From Palleronia sp. LCG004 (GTDB taxonomy: Bacteria; Pseudomonadota; Alphaproteobacteria; Rhodobacterales; Rhodobacteraceae), in contig NZ_CP136759.1 of the NCBI RefSeq assembly GCF_032931615.1, positions 806,001 through 870,000 on the forward strand: 64,000 nucleotides of DNA. Direction: 5' to 3'. Each line of letters starts with the position of its first letter. Position 1 is the first letter of the stretch. A program made the translations under genes and the position numbers. This document shows, piece after piece, positions 36,451 to 49,056 of this stretch. The notes below the pieces were generated by a model. The model saw nothing but the letters and a program-made list of their open reading frames with translations, searched no databases and was not told the DNA's origin.

Positions 36451-36887
36451 TGGGCCGGCCGCTGATCAGCCTGACCTCGGAGCAGGCTCGCGAGGTCGAG
36501 ACGCTGGCGGTCCTTCTGAGCCAGGACCAGATCGCCGATTACTTCGGCATCTCCCGCAGCACCTTCCACGCAATCTGCTCGCGGGAGCCGGAGGTTCTCA
36601 AGCGGTATAAAAGAGGAAAGGCCAAGGCCATCGCGCATGTCGCGAACGGGCTGCTGCAGAAGGCGCGGGCGGGCTGCATGACCTCGTCGATCTTCTATCT
36701 CAAGACGCCGGCCGGGTGGCGCGAGACCGCGGAGATCCACCACAGACCAGCAGGCCCGTCCTTCGAAGAGCTGAGCGATGCGGAACTTTTCGCGCGCTTT
36801 GCCGAACTGATGGAAGAGGTGGAAGGATTGCTGGTCGAAGCCTCCATCGTGCAGCATGATCCCGATGGATGGGAGGAGGACCCGTGA
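36450..36887 (+). CDS. Phage-type helix-turn-helix protein upstream of terminase
   Basis: An intact 145-residue ORF: MGRPLISLTSEQAREVETLA, then LLSQDQIADYFGISRSTFHA (helix-turn-helix), ICSREPEVLKRYKRGKAKAI and YLKTPAGWRETAEIHHRP. It matches the type of small DNA-binding protein encoded just before P27-family terminase small subunits in alphaproteobacterial prophages. The stop overlaps the next GTG as GTGA, so the original packaging operon order is preserved. Likely a surviving piece of an otherwise deleted prophage. Confidence 0.75.
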   Translation: MGRPLISLTSEQAREVETLAVLLSQDQIADYFGISRSTFHAICSREPEVLKRYKRGKAKAIAHVANGLLQKARAGCMTSSIFYLKTPAGWRETAEIHHRPAGPSFEELSDAELFARFAELMEEVEGLLVEASIVQHDPDGWEEDP

Positions 36888-37205
36888 GACGAGGTCGCAA
36901 GCCGACCCCCGGGCCTCGCCGGAGCTGAGAGAGGGCGGGTTATCGCGATGTCCCGACCATCTCGATGCCACGGCGCGCAAGGAATGGCGCAGGCTTGCCA
37001 GGCCGCTCTTCGAGGCGGGCATCCTCACGGTGGCCGACCGGGCGGCCTTCGCGGCCTATTGCCAGTCTTGGAGCCATTGGGTGGAGGCCACGCGGAAGCT
37101 CGGGGAGACGCCACGGCTCATCCGGACCCCGTCGGGCTACGTGCAGCAGAGCCCGTGGATCGGCATCGCCAACAGGCAGCTGGAGCTGACACCAATACGG
37201 CGAGA
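36884..37205 (+). pseudogene. P27-family terminase small subunit, frameshifted and truncated
   Basis: GTG at 36884 starts VRRGRKPTPGPRRS, the usual RGRKP beginning of P27 terminase small subunits, but the frame then stops. In a neighbouring frame the gene continues as CPDHLDATARKEWRRLARPL, AAFAAYCQSWSHWVEATRKL and YVQQSPWIGIANRQLELT. It ends abruptly about residue 100 where an IS903-type transposase fragment begins. So the gene carries a frameshift near 36930 and has lost its 3' end. The large terminase gene is absent. Confidence 0.75.
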
Positions 37206-37223
37206 AGAGCGAGCAGTCGGAGC

Positions 37224-37663
37224 ATGCTCGACCAGATTCCCAACGACGAGCGGATCGACACGGTTGCGGCCGACGGTGCCTGTGACACCCGCCGCCGTCA
37301 GACGGCCATCACCGAACGGCGGGCCATCCCGATCCGGAAGGACGGCGCGCCTGGAAAGCAGACGCCCCGGCGGCGAAGTTTCGGAACGAAAGGCTACGCG
37401 CCAAATAGCGCTTCGATCGCGCATTCCGGAAGCATTGGACCGGATACCACGCTCGAAGCCGCGACGAAGCAAAGATGCGAGGTATAAAGGCCTCCGGCGA
37501 ACGCATCGTCGCCGAGACCCTGACCGCCAGACAATCGAAAGCCACATCCGCATCGCACTCGTCAACCGCGCCAACGTCTCCAGTACCGCCAGCATCGTCC
37601 GCGCGGCATGACGTCAGCGGGGAAAGAGGACCCCTGCTTCAGGCGTGGGGTCCGCAACAATGC
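37224..37663 (+). mobile_element. IS903-group (IS5 family) remnant, 3' half
   Basis: The region aligns with the C-terminal 140 residues of the transposase of the full copy at 48.0-49.1 kb. Seen in shifting frames are LDQIPNDERIDTVAADGACDT (compare LGQIPEDEQIGTVTADGAYDT), then RRRDPDRQTIESHIRIALVN and the end SIVRAA. Several frameshifts are present. Downstream of the stop it keeps the IS end, finishing GTCCGCAACAATGC at 37663, close to the terminal inverted repeat of the full copy. The 5' half and left end are gone. Its orientation is opposite to the full copy. Confidence 0.82.
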
Positions 37664-40736: not shown

Positions 40737-41261
40737 TCAGTTCGAAATTTCTACCCCCGAGCGGCGCAAAGCGTGGGCGGTACCGTTACTTTCACCGGTG
40801 AACACTGCAATGTCTCCGGAGGGTTCGAGCACCATTGCGGTAATGTCATCCAGTCGCTCGATCCCATGCTGACGCATTAGCATCAAGATCTCGTCGCGGA
40901 CGATACGCTCGCGACGCATGTTCGCGCCCTGCAATTCGCCCTTGAAGACCAGAAGCGTGGGAGACGACTTGACCATATTCCGGATCGTTTGAGAGCGGAT
41001 GACGGCGAGCGAAATAAGATAATCGATGCCGATAATAGAGGTAAGGCCAAGCGCTGCATCGACGAACTTTACCCGTTCCAAAACGATGAACGACGCGAGG
41101 ACCGAGCCGACGGTGAAGGTAAGGATCATGTCATACATGTTGAACTTCGCAACCGTTCGCTTGCCCGCGACGCGCAAAAGGAACAGAAGAAGGGCGAAGC
41201 CGAGGGCGGCAGAAGCCGGAATATGCCAAAGGGGTCGGTCCCCATCGAGAAAGAAGTTCAT
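40737..41261 (-). CDS. DUF421 (YetF-like) membrane protein
   Basis: A 174-residue protein: three N-terminal helices, then KRTVAKFNMYDMILTFTVGS, the family core, and a soluble domain with SSPTLLVFKGELQGANMRRE and RDEILMLMRQHGIERLDDIT. DUF421 proteins are common in stress-related islands of soil and marine alphaproteobacteria; their function is not established. AGGATAAG just before the ATG at 41261 serves as ribosome-binding site. Monocistronic between IS remnants and a gene desert. Confidence 0.88.
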   Translation of the reverse strand: MNFFLDGDRPLWHIPASAALGFALLLFLLRVAGKRTVAKFNMYDMILTFTVGSVLASFIVLERVKFVDAALGLTSIIGIDYLISLAVIRSQTIRNMVKSSPTLLVFKGELQGANMRRERIVRDEILMLMRQHGIERLDDITAMVLEPSGDIAVFTGESNGTAHALRRSGVEISN

Positions 41262-42208: not shown

Positions 42209-43060
42209 TCATATCGCAGTTTGCCTGACCGCGAGTACATCGCATACACCCTCGTAACGCGCAGGAAGTGCAGGCCACGCACTGGGAGGCAGCAGCATAG
42301 CAAGACGATGCTCGAGTGCTGAACATTCGTCATCAAGAGCCGCAGTTTCAGCAGATAAGTCGGCACGCGTGCGCGCGGCAATGGTTGTGGCCATCCCCCC
42401 GGGCGCACGGCCCCGAAGGCGGCAGGAGGCGACCACGACGGCATCCCAAGGTCGCGCCACCCGCAACCTTGCAGCCGACAGCGCGACGGCCATGCGCCGA
42501 TCCTCTTCCCGGGGGAGAGGGGCGATCCCGCCCGAAGCCCGGTACGCATCCGGCCGCCATGCGATCAGGGCACCGGGGCTCTGGCCATGGCATGGGGTCG
42601 GGTTCCAAGGAAGCGCCGCCATAATGCCGTCGATGAGCGCACGGAGAGAATCGCGCCGATCTTCGAGGAGACCGTGCTGCCGTACCGCCGCGGGCAGGTT
42701 CGCGAACTCGCCCGCGTCAGGCACCACGCGCCCGAAGGCGGCTTCGGCGTCGTCCAGCGCACGGGCAAGGACTGTGGCCGTGCCATGGGCCAGGGTACAG
42801 TCTGCGTCGGTAGTCATGACCCAGGATGGCCGTCGCAGGAGGGCTATTTCGAGCCCGATGGCGCGTGCTTCACCTACACCTCCGGCGAGAGGGGGCGTCT
42901 CAATGACGAAGGCTCCGTGCTTGTGGGCCACCGCCGCCGTCGCGTCGCGGCAGCCATTGGCGACGACGATCGCCGTCACGCCTTCGCGGCGCAGAGCCGC
43001 CAAAGCCGCGGGCAGGCGAGCGGATTCATCACGCGCGGGGATCACCGCGATCACGTTCAT
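42209..43060 (-). CDS. GT2-type glycosyltransferase (gene 4 of ATGA-coupled operon)
   Basis: A 283-residue protein with the GT-A nucleotide-sugar fold start MNVIAVIPARDESARLPAAL, AIVVANGCRDATAAVAHKHG and a DxD-like motif in VMTTDADCTLAHGTA. No transmembrane helix, so it is a cytosolic glycosyl- or glycosyl-like transferase. Its ATG overlaps the stop of the methyltransferase gene (ATGA). Acceptor and donor unknown. It is the last gene of the four-gene operon. Confidence 0.85.
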   Translation of the reverse strand: MNVIAVIPARDESARLPAALAALRREGVTAIVVANGCRDATAAVAHKHGAFVIETPPLAGGVGEARAIGLEIALLRRPSWVMTTDADCTLAHGTATVLARALDDAEAAFGRVVPDAGEFANLPAAVRQHGLLEDRRDSLRALIDGIMAALPWNPTPCHGQSPGALIAWRPDAYRASGGIAPLPREEDRRMAVALSAARLRVARPWDAVVVASCRLRGRAPGGMATTIAARTRADLSAETAALDDECSALEHRLAMLLPPSAWPALPARYEGVCDVLAVRQTAI

Positions 43061-43635
43061 GGCGATGGCAGGGGAAGGGGGGCGAAGACGGCGATGCGGT
43101 AGCGTCTGTCGGTCTCGACCGTATGGGATTGGCGTTGCGTCGCGTTCGAATATTCGGCGAATGCATCCTCGCCGCTGAGCAGGTGACCAGTCGGACCGCG
43201 CCACGTGACCGTCACCACGTCGGCACGTGGCCATGCTGCGTCGATGCGTCCTGCAACGTCTCGGATCGCGTCGGCCGCAAGGAAATAGAGAACCTCACTC
43301 AGCAGCACGAGATCGTGCATTGTCCCGGGCAACGGGCATGGCAGGAACCCCTCGACGAAGAGACCATTCGGCACGACCTTGCGTGCCGCTGCCAACGCTG
43401 TCGGTACGGCATCGAGGCCGGTATAACTAAGACATCGTGGTGCGATGCGACGGGAAAGCTCACCGTTGCCACAACCGAGTTCAAGCGCGCTTTCGTAATT
43501 CGATCGGGGCAGGGCATTCAAGACTGCCGCAAAACGTTCAGCCTCGAAGCTTGATGAGCGGAAGTTCCATGGGTCGTCCGTCTCGGCATAGAGGCCCAGC
43601 AGGTGCGCCCGCCCCGCAGCTACCGGGGCGGTCAT
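43057..43635 (-). CDS. NodS-like SAM methyltransferase (gene 3 of operon)
   Basis: 192 residues. An N-terminal segment DPWNFRSSSFEAERFAAVL is typical of NodS-family methyltransferases. The SAM motif is ALELGCGNGELSRRIAPRCL, followed by YTGLDAVPTALAAARK and LVLLSEVLYFLAADAI. NodS proteins N-methylate amino sugars freed by a deacetylase, which fits the PIG-L gene immediately upstream. Both boundaries are ATGA overlaps. The C-terminus reads RRYRIAVFAPLPLPSP. Confidence 0.87.
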   Translation of the reverse strand: MTAPVAAGRAHLLGLYAETDDPWNFRSSSFEAERFAAVLNALPRSNYESALELGCGNGELSRRIAPRCLSYTGLDAVPTALAAARKVVPNGLFVEGFLPCPLPGTMHDLVLLSEVLYFLAADAIRDVAGRIDAAWPRADVVTVTWRGPTGHLLSGEDAFAEYSNATQRQSHTVETDRRYRIAVFAPLPLPSP

Positions 43636-44324
43636 GCCGATACCGGTACAAAGAGCTCGGCTTCGCTGATGAAGCGTTCGGCAAAACCCGGTGGCATCTC
43701 GAATCCGTCGGGATCGTCGGTGACTACGAGGCCCATCTGGCTTCGATGCGCGGCAAGCGCCCGACGCTTGGCATCCCGGCGCTTGGGCAGATCCAGCCGC
43801 AAACCCGGCAGATCTTTGCCCGCCTCCAAGGCACTCCAGCGGGACCAGACCGGATAATGCCAGAGCTGCAAACCGGTGCGCCAAACGCCAACCCTCGCTG
43901 CCGCTTCCGCGCCTGCTTGGTGGTCGCAATGGGGATCGTCCGGTGACGGGAAGAGGAGTGTGTCTACACCCAGTCGATCGCATAGTCCTGTCAGGACATG
44001 CGCCAGATCGGCACCCGGCCCGTAAAGCCTGTGCAACGCCGCATCGGGAAAGCCAAGCCATGTCACGTCCCGGGCAGGCGTTCCGCCGAGCCGGCGTACG
44101 GCTTCAGTCAGTTCGCCATGCCGTACCGCAGCAAGGCGCGCGTGGGGCCAGAGCAGAGAATGCGGATGGGAGGCCGCGCCATCAGTCAGGCATACGACAT
44201 GCGTGAAACGCCCTTGCGCCCATCGTTCGGCGAGCAGCAACCCGCATCCAAGTGACTCGTCGTCGGGATGCGGGGCCAGTACGAGGAGTGGTGCTTCGCC
44301 CTCCAACAGATCCGCGAGAGTCAT
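43632..44324 (-). CDS. PIG-L family N-deacetylase (gene 2 of operon)
   Basis: A 230-residue zinc-dependent deacetylase. The metal motif is LLVLAPHPDDESLGCGLLLA (HPDDE), with GAASHPHSLLWPHARLAAVR and the third ligand region LFPSPDDPHCDHQAGAEAA. PIG-L/LmbE proteins (MshB, BshB, PIG-L) deacetylate GlcNAc-type sugars on small-molecule or lipid carriers. Together with a GT and a NodS-like methyltransferase this suggests an N-methylated amino-sugar product (inference). Overlaps both neighbours as ATGA. Confidence 0.9.
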   Translation of the reverse strand: MTLADLLEGEAPLLVLAPHPDDESLGCGLLLAERWAQGRFTHVVCLTDGAASHPHSLLWPHARLAAVRHGELTEAVRRLGGTPARDVTWLGFPDAALHRLYGPGADLAHVLTGLCDRLGVDTLLFPSPDDPHCDHQAGAEAAARVGVWRTGLQLWHYPVWSRWSALEAGKDLPGLRLDLPKRRDAKRRALAAHRSQMGLVVTDDPDGFEMPPGFAERFISEAELFVPVSA

Positions 44325-45469
44325 CGGAGCGCCTCCAGCCCGGTTTCCGTGACAGTCCGGACGGCGCGATCGAGCTTGGCGTCGGGCGCGGCCTGACGCA
44401 GGAACAGCGACAGGTCCCGCCGCATCCGGTCGAGCGGATCCCGAATGTCCTGAGCGGCCATACCGAGCGAACGTTCACAGAGCGCAAGGATACGGGTGCA
44501 GGCGCTTTCCACGGCTTCGCGCGCGAGAAGGCTATGCGCCACCGCCCGCTCGACGGCTTCTGGGGGCGCGTGACTTGCTGCTTCCACCGCTTCGGCTGCC
44601 GCTTCGACCACGGCGCGGGCAGCCGTCGCATCGGCCATGGCGCGACCCAAACGGTTGCGCTGAATGGGATCGTCGAGGCGTTCCATCCGCCGTAGCATGT
44701 CAGTCCAGCGCGCGATGAGGCCCTCCGCGCCGCCCACATGCGCCGCACAATAGCGCCAAACCCCGCCTTCGAACCAAGGCTCGGTCATCAAAGCTCCAGC
44801 CTTGCCGATGCATTCCGCCTCCTCAAGGATAATCCCCGTGGCGTCAAAGCCGCCGGATCGGGTGGCACGCATGGCGGAAGCCGTCCATGCGTCGTGGTCG
44901 TAGCGATTTGGGTCGTCTGCTGGGGCCAGGAACATCCTTATGGGGGCGTCCCGTGTCGCGCGAGCAGTCAGGACGGCGAGGCCGACATGGCCGAGACCCG
45001 ACGCGTAGCGCTTGCTTCCAATGAGTGCGAAGCCGCCCCCGCCATGGTCCCGCCATTCGAGCGGTTCGGGACCTTCGGCTCCCCATACGCCAAGTAGCAC
45101 GCCACGGCGCACTGCTGTCCGCATCGCTTCGCGGACCTGGCGGTCGCCATGTATCTCGACTAGGACAGCCGCGTTGACATGCCCCTCGACGAGCCGCGCG
45201 AGCGCTAGGTCGGCAGCCCCGATGACGCGTAGCAGGTTCGAAAGCGGACGGGCCGTCCCATGCGCCCACCCGAGACCGTGTCCTTCGGGCGAAGGTAGCA
45301 CGGCACGCAGTGTCCCCCTCTCGCGCAGCAAGTCCAAGGCGGCGGACAGGTCCGGCAGATCGTGGGTGGTGGTATTCTGGGAATTCCTCAGACGATCAAG
45401 CGATCGAAACAAGCTGGCGACGACCGCGTCAACGGCGACCGGCTCGGCAGTATGGTGTACGGGATACAT
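44321..45469 (-). CDS. Acyl-CoA dehydrogenase-family flavoprotein (gene 1 of operon)
   Basis: A 382-residue protein of acyl-CoA dehydrogenase fold: TARPLSNLLRVIGAADLALA near the N-terminus, FALIGSKRYASGLGHVGLAV in the beta domain, and the C-terminal helical half including NRLGRAMADATAARAVVEAA and ACTRILALCERSLGMAAQDI. It is divergent from classical members, and I cannot locate the usual catalytic Glu by eye. Such proteins in small clusters sometimes desaturate or hydroxylate a carrier-bound acyl or amino substrate. It is the first gene of the coupled operon, 69 bp after the Crp/Fnr gene. Confidence 0.85.
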   Translation of the reverse strand: MYPVHHTAEPVAVDAVVASLFRSLDRLRNSQNTTTHDLPDLSAALDLLRERGTLRAVLPSPEGHGLGWAHGTARPLSNLLRVIGAADLALARLVEGHVNAAVLVEIHGDRQVREAMRTAVRRGVLLGVWGAEGPEPLEWRDHGGGGFALIGSKRYASGLGHVGLAVLTARATRDAPIRMFLAPADDPNRYDHDAWTASAMRATRSGGFDATGIILEEAECIGKAGALMTEPWFEGGVWRYCAAHVGGAEGLIARWTDMLRRMERLDDPIQRNRLGRAMADATAARAVVEAAAEAVEAASHAPPEAVERAVAHSLLAREAVESACTRILALCERSLGMAAQDIRDPLDRMRRDLSLFLRQAAPDAKLDRAVRTVTETGLEALR

Positions 45470-45538
45470 GCATCCTCCCGCCCGAACGCGACGGGCATGA
45501 ATAGCAGGTAGGTCGCCTCCATCCGTAACAAGCGGTCG

Positions 45539-46276
45539 TTAAACTAGTTTACGTGCCTGTAGCTCGGCGTTGTGAAGTTCGAGGTAGGCCGGGTCGAAAT
45601 CGGCGAAACGTGCCAACCCCTCGGGGTTCGGCAAATGGATACGTCCGCCGGCCCATTCGAGAAGACCTTCGGCGCGCAGATCCCTGACGGCGTGGTTCAC
45701 ATGCACAACCGAATAGCCCAGCACCTGGGCCAAGCCGCGCTGGTCCAAGGGCATCGCGAAAGTGGATTCTCTCGTCAAACCCACAGCTGCGAGGCGTGCG
45801 TGCAACTCGCAGATTAGGTGGCCGATCCGTTGCGTGCCGCGGAGCGCCGCCCGCGTCACGATCCAAACGCGGTGCATCTTTGCGTCGATAAGTGTGGCGC
45901 GCCAGAGCAGGCGCGCGAGGCGCGGATAATCTCGGGTCAGTGCTTCGAGGTGATCGCTCGCGACGAAGTCGATCATGCAGGGCCCTATGGCCACGATGTC
46001 ATGATCGAGATGATCGAGCAGGAACGAGTGCAGATCCACGAAGTCGCCGGGCACGTGGAGCGCGCTCACGACACGTTCGGTCCGCCCTACTCGGTGGACC
46101 CGCATTGCCATGCCATCCACCAGCATGCAACTTCCTTCGGGTGCAAGCCCTTCGGCAACGATCCTTTCGGCATGGGCATAGGTGCGCCGTTCGACCGGCA
46201 TGTCGCGCAAGGCGGTGCGCTCTTCCTCCGACAATGCATTTCTGCGCGCGAGATGTGTTTCGAGCTGTTTCGTCAT
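45539..46276 (-). CDS. Crp/Fnr family transcriptional regulator
   Basis: A 245-residue regulator. It has an N-terminal cyclic-nucleotide-binding-like beta-roll (RIVAEGLAPEGSCMLVDGMA, VVSALHVPGDFVDLHSFLLD) and a C-terminal winged helix with FAMPLDQRGLAQVLGYSVVH followed by VNHAVRDLRAEGLLEWAGG. There is no N-terminal Cys cluster, so it is not an Fe-S FNR. It is 69 bp upstream of the four-gene operon on the same strand and may control or be cotranscribed with it. ATG at 46276. Confidence 0.88.
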   Translation of the reverse strand: MTKQLETHLARRNALSEEERTALRDMPVERRTYAHAERIVAEGLAPEGSCMLVDGMAMRVHRVGRTERVVSALHVPGDFVDLHSFLLDHLDHDIVAIGPCMIDFVASDHLEALTRDYPRLARLLWRATLIDAKMHRVWIVTRAALRGTQRIGHLICELHARLAAVGLTRESTFAMPLDQRGLAQVLGYSVVHVNHAVRDLRAEGLLEWAGGRIHLPNPEGLARFADFDPAYLELHNAELQARKLV

Positions 46277-46532
46277 GACCAAATGGGAACCCTTACTCTT
46301 CTGTAACAATCGTTCTATCGAATCTGGCAGGTCACGACGGCGATGTTCTAAGCCCCATCGTCAGCGGATACGTCGAGGGACTTGCGATAATAGAGAGGCC
46401 GACCTTCCGGTTTGCCTCTGACGGATGGCTCAATGATTGCCGATGTGACTGAGATTGGTCTCGGGAAGCTCGCGAGCACAAGAGAATAAATTGCTTTATC
46501 CCTGACTGGGTGTCCTTGGAGAGAAACATTCA

Positions 46533-46870: not shown

Positions 46871-48001
46871 TCATCCATTAGGTGCTGCCAACTTGTCGAC
46901 GAAGCGCGCCCCCCAGACAAAAACGTCGGTATCGCGGACGACTTCCATCAGTGCGGCATGGCGCTCACACCGTTCGTCGAGCGGCATAGAGAGACCCTGT
47001 TCAATTGCGTCGGCGACTTCTTCGGAATCATGGGGGTTGACGATCAGAGCTTCGGTCATCTGCTCGGCTGCCCCGGCCGACCGCGACAGGATCAAGACGC
47101 CCGGATCCTGAGGATCCTGTGCGGCTACGTATTCCTTGGCGACAAGGTTCATGCCGTCTGCGAGAGGTGTCACCAATCCGACGGAAGCCAGCCGATAAAG
47201 GGGCGCGAGCGTCTCGCGTGGAACGCTTCGTACGATGAGCCGGATCGGCGTCCAGTCGATCTCGCCGTACTGCCCGTTGATGCGTCCTGTCAGTGCCTCG
47301 AGCTCGCGTGTGATTTCCTGATAGGAGGCGATGACCTCGCGCGAGGGGGGCGTGATCTGGATAAGCGTGGCGCGTGGCAAAGAAGGGTCACGCGCTTCGA
47401 GGAACTTTGCGAACCCACGTATGCGATGGGGGATTCCCTTTGAGTAGTCGAGCCGATCCACGCCGATGATCATTTTGGCACCCGCCCGGATATGTACTGG
47501 GTCATGGGAAAGCGGCGTGCTTGCGACCGAAGTGAATGCTTCGCTGTCAATTCCGATCGGGAAGGAGCGAACTTCGAACTTTCGGTCTCCGAGCTTTACC
47601 CGACCGTTGAAGAGCAACTCTCCGCAGGCATGACCGCGATATACTTCGAGGCAACGCGCGACATCCGCTTCTGTCTGGAGACCAACCAGGTCGTAGGAGG
47701 CGATCCAGCGATAGAATTCGTCGCGCTCGTTGAGGGATGCGATGTCCGAGGATGTGGGGAATGGGATATGGAGAAATAATCCCAGACGGGCCCGGACGCC
47801 CAACCGTCGCAGCTCGTAGGCAAGGGGGAGGAAGTGGTAATCGTGGATCCAGATCAGATCCTCGGGGCCGGTAATCTCTGCGAGCATTCGGGCGATCCGC
47901 GCGTTAACAGCAAGATAACCCTCGGCAAAGCGCCGTTCGAGTGCGAGGAGATCCGTCCGATGATGGCAGAGCGGCCAGAGAACGGAATTCGCATATCCGA
48001 G
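46871..48001 (-). pseudogene. otsA: Trehalose-6-phosphate synthase OtsA, 5' end missing
   Basis: The open frame matches OtsA (GT20) from the YANSVLWPLCHHRTDLLALE region onward. It includes LIWIHDYHFLPLAYELRRLG, GLFLHIPFPTSSDIASLNER, VDRLDYSKGIPHRIRGFAKF and VTPLADGMNLVAKEYVAAQD. Full OtsA has about 80 residues before this point (substrate loop and first Rossmann strands). Those are absent because the IS903-group element joins at 48001/48002. The ORF's extra N-terminal residues come from the IS. OtsA makes trehalose-6-phosphate for osmotic stress; this copy should be inactive. No otsB is next to it. Confidence 0.88.
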
Positions 48002-49056
48002 GGGCATTGTTGCAGAACTCACGCTTGAGGCATGACTTCCCCTTCCCCCGCTGAGGTTATGCGACGCGAACGATCTCGGCAGTGCCGAGGGCATTGAAGC
48101 GGTTCATGAGTGCGACGCGAATGTGGATCTCGGCGGTTTGGCGGTCAGGGTCTCTTGCGGCTATGCGTTCGCCGAATGCTTTGAGGCATCGCATTTTCGC
48201 CTCCACGCGGCTGCGTGCGTGGTATCCGGTCCAGTACTTCCAGAATGCTCTGCCGTAATGCTTCGTGGCGCGCAGCGTCTCGTTCCGCGCCTTCGCTGCC
48301 GGGCCGTCTTCCTTCCAGGCGCGCCCGTTTCTCCGGATCGGGATGATCGGTGTGGCTTGCCGGTCGGCGATAGCAGCATGGCAGCGACGTGTGTCGTAGG
48401 CACCGTCGGCGGTCACCGTGCCGATCTGCTCGTCCTCGGGGATCTGGCCGAGTAGCTCGGGTAGGATCGGGCTGTCGCCATCGCGGCTTGGAGTGAACTC
48501 GACGGCCCGGATGTCGGAAGTGGCCGTATCCATGGCGAGATGCACCTTGCGCCACTGACGACGGCCTTGGGCGCCATGCTTGCGCGCCTGCCACTCACCG
48601 TCGCCGAGGAACTTGATGCCCGTGCTATCCACGAGCAAGTTGAGCGGGCCATCGGAGCAGCGATACGGGATCTGGACCGCCAAGGTCTTTTGCCTGCGGC
48701 ACAGGGTGCTGAAGTCGGGGACGGACCAGTTCAGCCCCGCCAACCGGAGCAGGCTGGCCACCATACCGGCGGTCTGTCGCAAGGGCAGCTTGAAGAGAAC
48801 TTTGACCGACAGACAAAACTGGATAGCGGCATCTGAGAAGACGGGTGGACGTCCGAGCCGACCTTTATGCGGCGCCAGCCAAGCCATCTCCCGGTCTATC
48901 CAGATCAGCATTGAGCCGCGCTTGCGCAAGGCAGCGTTGTAGCTGGACCAGTTCGTCGTGCGGTAGCGGGCGGGGGAAGGCTTGCTCATGCAGCCCGTCT
49001 AACCAACTGGATTCACGCTGTGAATCGCCCGCAGACAGAGTTCTGCAACAACGCCC
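48002..49056 (-). mobile_element. IS5-family IS903-group insertion sequence, full length
   Basis: A 1.05-kb element bounded by near-perfect 19-bp inverted repeats: GGGCATTGTTGCAGAACTC at the left and its complement with one mismatch at the right (48002 and 49056). It holds one intact transposase gene. The expected 9-bp target duplication is not seen (left flank TATCCGAGG, right flank CGCCCACTG in the same window), and the two flanks belong to different sequences (otsA and an IS427 remnant). So the element sits at a rearrangement junction. Confidence 0.9.
48057..48989 (-). CDS. IS903-group transposase
   Basis: A 310-residue DDE transposase, intact. It shows GRLGRPPVFSDAAIQFCLSV, NIPY-type YRCSDGPLNLLVDSTGIKFL (first Asp), TVTADGAYDTRRCHAAIADR (second Asp) and YHARSRVEAKMRCLKAFGER (catalytic Glu). 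The match to IS903-group IS5 family members is clear from motif order and length. It is potentially active, since no frame disruption is visible. Confidence 0.94.
   Translation of the reverse strand: MSKPSPARYRTTNWSSYNAALRKRGSMLIWIDREMAWLAPHKGRLGRPPVFSDAAIQFCLSVKVLFKLPLRQTAGMVASLLRLAGLNWSVPDFSTLCRRQKTLAVQIPYRCSDGPLNLLVDSTGIKFLGDGEWQARKHGAQGRRQWRKVHLAMDTATSDIRAVEFTPSRDGDSPILPELLGQIPEDEQIGTVTADGAYDTRRCHAAIADRQATPIIPIRRNGRAWKEDGPAAKARNETLRATKHYGRAFWKYWTGYHARSRVEAKMRCLKAFGERIAARDPDRQTAEIHIRVALMNRFNALGTAEIVRVA

Follow-up and report, generated by a model that had tools for sequence, protein, structure and literature searches.

A conserved four-gene operon in Palleronia sp. LCG004 and distant bacteria that may tailor an amino sugar and that neighbors stress genes in part of its range

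In the tailoring of Nod factors, N-acetylglucosamine (GlcNAc) is de-N-acetylated by NodB and then N-methylated by NodS. Mycothiol and bacillithiol are protective small molecules made with a glycosyltransferase and a PIG-L deacetylase, and nitrososynthases act on nucleotide-linked deoxysugars of antibiotics. Here we describe four adjoining genes, the quartet, within 64,000 nucleotides of Palleronia sp. LCG004 (contig NZ_CP136759.1, positions 806,001 to 870,000; this whole stretch is called the window). The quartet encodes an acyl-CoA-dehydrogenase-fold flavoprotein, a PIG-L deacetylase, a NodS-like methyltransferase, and a family 2 glycosyltransferase (GT2). An earlier note, made from the window's letters, had placed a minus-strand operon of these genes, with a Crp/Fnr neighbor, at 42209 to 46276, and the open reading frames (ORFs) and Pfam matches bore out its positions, families, and junctions (Table 1). 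The quartet is a real conserved module and is apparently uncharacterized. We give an even chance to the proposal that it is a conserved stress-linked operon through which an N-acetylated sugar would be added, deacetylated, N-methylated, and oxidized.

To describe conservation, named genomes were scanned with one genome per species, and the best 80 of the 129 matching loci were used, some with flanks shortened by contig ends. The first three genes were present in all 80 of these named loci and the glycosyltransferase as well in 76, as counted with profiles built from the loci themselves, and the order flavoprotein, PIG-L, methyltransferase was recurrent. A 92-locus set, which may contain the same species twice, held PIG-L in 91, the methyltransferase in 91, and a glycosyltransferase in 85 loci; the sole miss of PIG-L and methyltransferase was L090, a weak match of 25% identity. 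The Palleronia genome itself (3.87 Mb, five contigs) gave one match when the flavoprotein was used as a single-sequence query. Matches were found in 10 of the 60 nearest genomes, its own included, and in 7 of 13 other members of the genus. Among 398 evenly drawn genomes of Pseudomonadota, the flavoprotein profile (E<=1e-20) matched in 20, seven of them outside the class. PIG-L lay within ~1.5 kb of the flavoprotein in 17/20 and the methyltransferase in 19/20; without the genome of origin and within ~8 kb, PIG-L was present in 16/19, the methyltransferase in 18/19, and a glycosyltransferase in 14/19. Six of the seven loci outside the class (L142 to L147) had the window's order, flavoprotein, PIG-L, methyltransferase, glycosyltransferase. 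When 289 genomes were drawn evenly from the class, the flavoprotein matched in 5 (E<=1e-30) and the PIG-L profile in 9 (E<=1e-20); four of the nine PIG-L matches adjoined the flavoprotein, one (G318) was ~280 kb away from it, and four were in genomes with no flavoprotein match. Absences in these surveys are soft because only 4 to 10 first-look candidates per genome were scored. We conclude that the quartet is patchy, at ~2 to 5% of genomes at the thresholds used, but strongly linked.

PIG-L and the methyltransferase also occur as one protein. A single ORF encodes both in three Advenella loci and in L129, from an unrelated alphaproteobacterium. The Advenella fusion as query (443 amino acids, a length biased toward fused matches) returned 137 homologues, and among the 120 listed, 87 carry both PF02585 and PF05401, including proteins of Arthrobacter, Microbacterium, and Cellulomonas. 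These fusions are genuine and occur in more than one phylum, which is good evidence that the two enzymes would catalyze consecutive steps on one substrate. PIG-L domains were also found joined with PF04488 in two proteins of ~630 residues (P0228 and P0231), another possible link to glycosylation.

Relatives of the quartet are found on plasmids. The flavoprotein matched 46 plasmid records, of which six were examined, and five of these, from Deinococcus radiodurans, Nostoc, Bradyrhizobium, Sulfitobacter, and Komagataeibacter, also carry PIG-L and the methyltransferase, the latter ~2.8 kb further along in Deinococcus. The Arthrobacter fusion protein matched 82 plasmid records, and in the four examined (Acinetobacter johnsonii, A. 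soli, Kitasatospora, and Pandoraea), all four quartet profiles matched; the A. soli flavoprotein is split and unannotated, and the Kitasatospora glycosyltransferase is a profile match with no listed gene. The plasmid collection, which held these more distant relatives, contained nothing close to the DNA of the window's own operon, and no relative was confirmed among the viral contigs scanned with the flavoprotein profile. The four genes belong together, as the earlier note had proposed, because they co-occur far beyond the alphaproteobacteria and with PIG-L/methyltransferase fusions, and joint occurrence of their homologues was found in distant genomes. Neither a characterized pathway matching the quartet nor a paper on its function was found among the papers listed by searches of an open-licence library, and the available portions of PMC6181384, PMC13130816, PMC9162365, and PMC10325922 held nothing on it. 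A Pseudomonas syringae PIG-L gene (PMC8005017) was set aside, as it is in a table of lipopolysaccharide core genes in a paper whose text does not contain the word methyltransferase.

The quartet is tightly packed. The exact 4-bp overlap between flavoprotein and PIG-L genes recurred in 61 of the 80 named loci. The junction of PIG-L and methyltransferase was a 4-bp overlap in 27, another overlap of 1 to 30 bp in 45, a gap of 20 bp or less in 5, and a fusion in 3, and the methyltransferase/glycosyltransferase junction was a 4-bp overlap in five of the nine loci with the window's order. These counts are biased toward overlaps, as the start nearest the upstream stop was chosen. The earlier note had read the overlaps as translational coupling and probably a complex. 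Overlaps of 4 bp are frequent within operons, and thus, the overlaps by themselves indicate co-translation but not a complex.

The deacetylase and the methyltransferase resemble enzymes that act on amino sugars. PHPDDE and HxDH are the metal-binding motifs of PIG-L de-N-acetylases, and P17, H18, D20, D21, E22, H131, D133, and H134 were invariant in 20/20 aligned PIG-L members, with the second P of PHPDDE only nearly so. Among solved structures, the PIG-L profile was nearest to diacetylchitobiose deacetylase, MshB, BshB, and teicoplanin deacetylase. The methyltransferase profile matched a bacterial methyltransferase structure (4isc; E, 1e-38) and NodS (3ofj; E, 2e-27), and Pfam NodS (PF05401) was matched by 20/20 methyltransferases scanned. 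The NCBIfam NodS equivalog scored 54.3 bits against a cut-off of 300, and therefore, the methyltransferase is a relative of NodS and not NodS itself. Homology to GlcNAc-type deacetylases and to NodS is what speaks for the deacetylate-then-N-methylate logic of the earlier note, whose chemistry for these two genes is plausible: PIG-L would remove an N-acetyl group, and the amine would then be methylated.

One alternative is that the operon makes a small protective cofactor like mycothiol or bacillithiol, in which methylation and oxidation replace cysteine ligation. Those pathways share the logic of a glycosyltransferase plus a deacetylase, the NCBIfam models nearest to PIG-L are those of the same pathways, and oxidative-stress genes neighbor part of the loci. 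The scores were, however, far below every cut-off (BshB2, 39.7 bits against 195.25; BshB1, 35.0 against 182.5; MshB, 22.4 against 224.35; Mca, 21.8 against 277). Moreover, the operon lacks any MshC- or BshC-like ligase, and MshA and BshA are of the GT4 type, while the quartet enzyme is a GT2. We consider a cofactor of this kind clearly unlikely.

The flavoprotein, which the earlier note had called a divergent acyl-CoA dehydrogenase, exceeded the Pfam cut-off of PF08028 and fell below that of PF00441. In a PDB profile search, DszC, TdsC, and MsuC outranked every acyl-CoA dehydrogenase. The predicted model (predicted local distance difference test [pLDDT] score, 87) had DszC and TdsC as its top Foldseek matches, with an entry titled "putative Acyl-CoA dehydrogenase" at rank 11, the nitrososynthases (KijD3, DnmZ, and a Micromonospora nitrososynthase) at ranks 19, 24, 31, and 35, and the first specifically titled acyl-CoA dehydrogenase at rank 36; the fold suggests that a flavin is bound. 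Two alignment columns, of the medium-chain acyl-CoA dehydrogenase (MCAD) and isovaleryl-CoA dehydrogenase (IVD) types, hold the catalytic glutamate of acyl-CoA dehydrogenases. In 22/22 flavoprotein members, the first is Gln and the second Gly, as read from a sequence alignment, made with no use of coordinates, that included six of the eight dehydrogenase-family matches in the genome of origin. One of these columns has a nearly invariant glutamate, E234, two residues away, and an alignment error there is therefore possible. H97 was tried as a marker of monooxygenases and dropped, as a histidine occupies the same place in four of six dehydrogenase ORFs from the same genome. By sequence and Foldseek rank, the flavoprotein seems slightly closer to the group D flavin monooxygenases (DszC, KijD3, and the nitrososynthases) than to acyl-CoA dehydrogenases, and with both catalytic glutamates apparently absent, the earlier chemistry for this gene, its "acyl" part in particular, is probably wrong. 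If the flavoprotein were nonetheless a true acyl-CoA dehydrogenase, the operon might make an N-acylated (glycolipid) amino-sugar conjugate, along the lines of the earlier note. The non-acidic columns, subject to the possible alignment error, and the top ranks by sequence and Foldseek argue against this, and neither an acyltransferase nor an acyl-CoA ligase is in the quartet; we consider it quite improbable. In D. radiodurans, the flavoprotein (L093, 7543 to 9882) has ~400 extra N-terminal residues, for which no Pfam family, no PDB sequence match, and no similar ORF in the loci scanned was found, and we describe it as a fusion and no more.

In the glycosyltransferase, D85, D87, E186, and D187 were invariant in 19/19 members, D85 and D87 forming a DxD motif. 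Its model (pLDDT, 88) best matched GT2-type folds with modest template modeling scores of 0.44 to 0.55 on the query, and these matches were generic, none naming a donor sugar. Among the 80 named loci, a glycosyltransferase gene lay upstream of the flavoprotein gene on the same strand and within 2.5 kb in 65, and after the methyltransferase gene in 9, which include the window's lineage and Advenella. We note an extended cluster in 18 of the loci L058 to L081 (Bosea, Brevundimonas, Porphyrobacter, and others), with a GT28-like gene between the GT2 and flavoprotein genes, a second GT2 gene after the methyltransferase gene, and often a GT4 gene upstream.

A second alternative is that a larger envelope glycan or exopolysaccharide, built with further glycosyltransferases, receives one amino sugar that the quartet attaches and modifies. 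In 18/80 named loci, representing 11 genus-like labels (assigned from record titles), the quartet is surrounded by a GT28-like protein and another GT2, and a GT4 is found in 19/80. In addition, the Sphingomonas melonis EcfG regulon includes overlapping glycosyltransferase genes and an exopolysaccharide protein, though these could not be placed as a quartet cluster (PMC6599016). A single glycosyltransferase, in contrast, stands beside the quartet in loci of the window's type and in the annotated Pandoraea and A. johnsonii records, and no polymerase, flippase, or export gene recurred among the identified neighbor clusters, which are only partly annotated. Decoration of a surface glycan is a possible reading, if on balance an unlikely one.

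Genes for stress survival neighbor the quartet in part of its relatives, a setting that the earlier note had overlooked. Counted in flanks of up to 7 kb on either side, a KatE-type catalase was present in 33/80 named loci and 21 genus-like labels. Of the 35 catalase ORFs, 16 were directly upstream on the same strand, with 18 to 278 bp between them and the matched region of the gene that follows. Another 6 were divergent, 5 were convergent, 2 lay downstream, and the remaining 6 had other arrangements. Other recurring neighbors were DUF892 (11 loci), DUF421 (10), LigD of the LigD/Ku neighborhood (7), and DUF389 (6), and, more rarely, the trehalose synthase OtsA (2 loci, L017 and L028). On the A. 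johnsonii plasmid (L149), whose homologues match the four quartet profiles at 122 to 159 bits, a catalase, DUF421, an iron-containing redox enzyme (PF14518; L149, 3843 to 5249), the quartet, OtsA, and OtsB lie within ~15 kb. The PF14518 enzyme may be DtpC-like, judging from its family and its DtpC-like size.

Published data on Acinetobacter, as far as the available parts of the sources go, are consistent with a role in stress. In A. baumannii, ACICU_02435 to ACICU_02432 are marked as one operon for an acyl-CoA dehydrogenase-related protein, LmbE, an S-adenosylmethionine (SAM) methyltransferase, and a glycosyltransferase (PMC5660220). By RNA sequencing, these genes, which match the quartet by annotation, were jointly lowered by 31- to 62-fold in two colistin-dependent strains, and otsA, otsB, and a catalase gene fell with them (PMC5660220). 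In a STRING analysis, the gene neighbors of blsA included LmbE, a glycosyl transferase, and a SAM methyltransferase, and its indirect partners included KatE and OtsB (PMC9948694). DtpC is a predicted diiron enzyme co-transcribed with katE, and either one is enough for drying tolerance in Acinetobacter (PMC13232832). That DtpC makes a protective small molecule was one possibility raised there, and catalase and hydrophilins were also named in drying tolerance (PMC13232832). Because a relative of the DtpC enzyme family adjoins the quartet on the A. johnsonii plasmid, the quartet is a concrete candidate operon for a protective-metabolite pathway.

The Crp/Fnr regulator gene, by comparison, is a lineage-specific addition. 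It is on the same strand as the quartet, and its stop ends at 45539, 69 bp before the flavoprotein ATG, as the earlier note had it. A general association did not hold: the gene is directly upstream of the flavoprotein gene in only 6/80 named loci, the six closest relatives L002 to L007 (Palleronia three times, Salipiger, an uncultured Rhodobacteraceae member, and Fulvimarina), whose flavoproteins are 67 to 73% identical to the window's. The presence of the Crp/Fnr-preceded set in Fulvimarina suggests that a five-gene unit was transferred. The cNMP domain of the regulator was below cut-off, and nothing convincing was found as an operator shared between the Crp/Fnr and flavoprotein genes in the window and the six relatives. 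In L052, L053, and L056, the methyltransferase gene is closely followed by a Crp/Fnr-type gene on the opposite strand, a second and different association.

A motif of the EcfG type (GGAAC-N16-18-[CG]GTT) was found upstream in 11/80 named loci, several of them of related species. This count was the highest of 90 permuted motif pairs, the true pair included (mean, 1.1; next highest, 6). Control of the operon everywhere by EcfG, the general stress sigma factor, was rejected because the motif occurs in a subset only and was absent both upstream of the window's operon and upstream of katE in 16 katE-first operons.

We propose the following pathway. The GT2 enzyme would transfer an N-acetylated hexosamine or a similar sugar onto an acceptor, PIG-L would take off the N-acetyl group, the NodS-like enzyme would methylate the freed amine, and the flavoprotein would oxidize the product. 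For this last step, a flavin-dependent oxygenase (e.g., an N-oxygenase resembling KijD3 and DnmZ, which are nitrososynthases) is more likely than an acyl-CoA dehydrogenase. Cells would produce the resulting glycoconjugate ahead of or in the course of drying, stationary phase, or oxidative stress. The analysis shows the gene content and its conservation, the fusions, and the stress genes near part of the relatives, and published work adds joint expression in Acinetobacter, for genes likened by annotation; we infer each reaction step, the order of the steps, which sugar and acceptor are used, and how the cell benefits.

Several observations weigh against this pathway, among them the two absences of the EcfG-type motif described above. 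For the flavoprotein, acyl-CoA dehydrogenases tie with monooxygenases in VIA-align, many dehydrogenases outrank the nitrososynthases (KijD3, 5e-7; DnmZ, 4e-6; 3mxl, 2e-5) when PDB is searched with the profile, and there is no flavin reductase in the quartet. The stress link is uneven, as catalase was within reach in only 3/19 loci of the even phylum draw and no PF00199 catalase was found in the Palleronia genome, and the A. baumannii operon was likened to the quartet by annotation and order and not by sequence. The module itself is sometimes incomplete. The flavoprotein and methyltransferase occur with no adjacent PIG-L in L131 and L132, L141 also has no PIG-L, and a Methylobacterium plasmid carries the flavoprotein alone. 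Two ORFs divide the flavoprotein between them in L005, L033, and A. soli (L150), and PIG-L is interrupted in L046, so that three of the 80 named loci (L005, L033, and L046) hold interrupted copies.

If the pathway is right, it would be an amino-sugar tailoring pathway whose link to stress-survival genes is seen in representatives of four or more phyla, and no known product of it was found. A more specific version is that the quartet, with a nitrososynthase-like flavoprotein, makes a previously unrecognized, widely shared stress metabolite, an N-methylated, N-oxygenated amino-sugar conjugate (a hydroxylamine, nitroso compound, or nitrone). Bacteria as different as Deinococcus, Nostoc, and Acinetobacter would use it with catalase and trehalose to withstand drying and oxidative stress. 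We put this version forward tentatively and think it unlikely in its entirety.

Features of the window are collected in Table 1. All four quartet proteins and the Crp/Fnr HTH_Crp_2 domain exceeded their Pfam cut-offs (Acyl-CoA_dh_2, 22.7 bits; PIG-L, 28.2; NodS, 24.0; Glycos_transf_2, 23.3; HTH_Crp_2, 27.0). The earlier description of intact genes amid decay was partly right: the neighboring trehalose synthase OtsA looks truncated by an insertion, because ~90 N-terminal profile positions are absent and its ORF overlaps a transposase ORF at 48057 to 48989. OtsA is probably not part of the quartet operon. An ORF like a phage terminase small subunit (PF05119) lies at 36856 to 37611, ~5 kb downstream of the quartet.

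Table 1. The quartet, its junctions, and neighboring genes in the Palleronia sp. LCG004 window
Feature	Position	Strand	Evidence
Acyl-CoA-dehydrogenase-fold flavoprotein, 382 amino acids, first in quartet	44321..45469	-	ORF; PF08028, 30.6 bits
PIG-L (LmbE) family de-N-acetylase, 230 amino acids	43632..44324	-	PF02585, 87.0 bits
NodS-like class I SAM methyltransferase, 192 amino acids	43057..43635	-	PF05401, 48.8 bits
GT2 glycosyltransferase, 283 amino acids, last in quartet	42209..43060	-	PF00535, 36.8 bits
Crp/Fnr-family regulator, 245 amino acids from ATG at 46276; alternative longer TTG start at 46309	45539..46276	-	HTH_Crp_2, 47.7 bits
ATGA overlap, flavoprotein/PIG-L	44321..44324	-	Sequence read
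ATGA overlap, PIG-L/methyltransferase	43632..43635	-	Sequence read
ATGA overlap, methyltransferase/GT2	43057..43060	-	Sequence read
OtsA, trehalose-6-phosphate synthase lacking its N terminus; stress-gene neighbor	46871..48094	-	PF00982, 319 bits, profile 91-472/473
DUF421 (YetF) protein, stress-gene neighbor	40737..41261	-	PF04239, 50.7 bits

Each of the closest known systems shares part of this organization. The quartet is like Nod-factor tailoring in having a methyltransferase of the NodS family; it differs in its added flavoprotein, in the absence of NodA and NodC from the operon (the part of the genome searched for them), and in its PIG-L enzyme (PF02585), NodB being of the polysaccharide-deacetylase type. 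With the mycothiol and bacillithiol systems (MshA/MshB and BshA/BshB), it shares a glycosyltransferase and a PIG-L deacetylase, but it scores below the curated cut-offs and has a methyltransferase and a flavoprotein in place of a ligase. The nitrososynthases KijD3, DnmZ, and that of Micromonospora share the acyl-CoA-dehydrogenase fold with the flavoprotein, and the title of the KijD3 structure names an amino-sugar nucleotide, but their identity to the flavoprotein is only ~16 to 20%. A. baumannii ACICU_02435 to ACICU_02432, for which no characterization was found in the part of the source available, has the same four annotations in the same order in one operon (PMC5660220); it differs in being gammaproteobacterial and more divergent, as compared by annotation and order.

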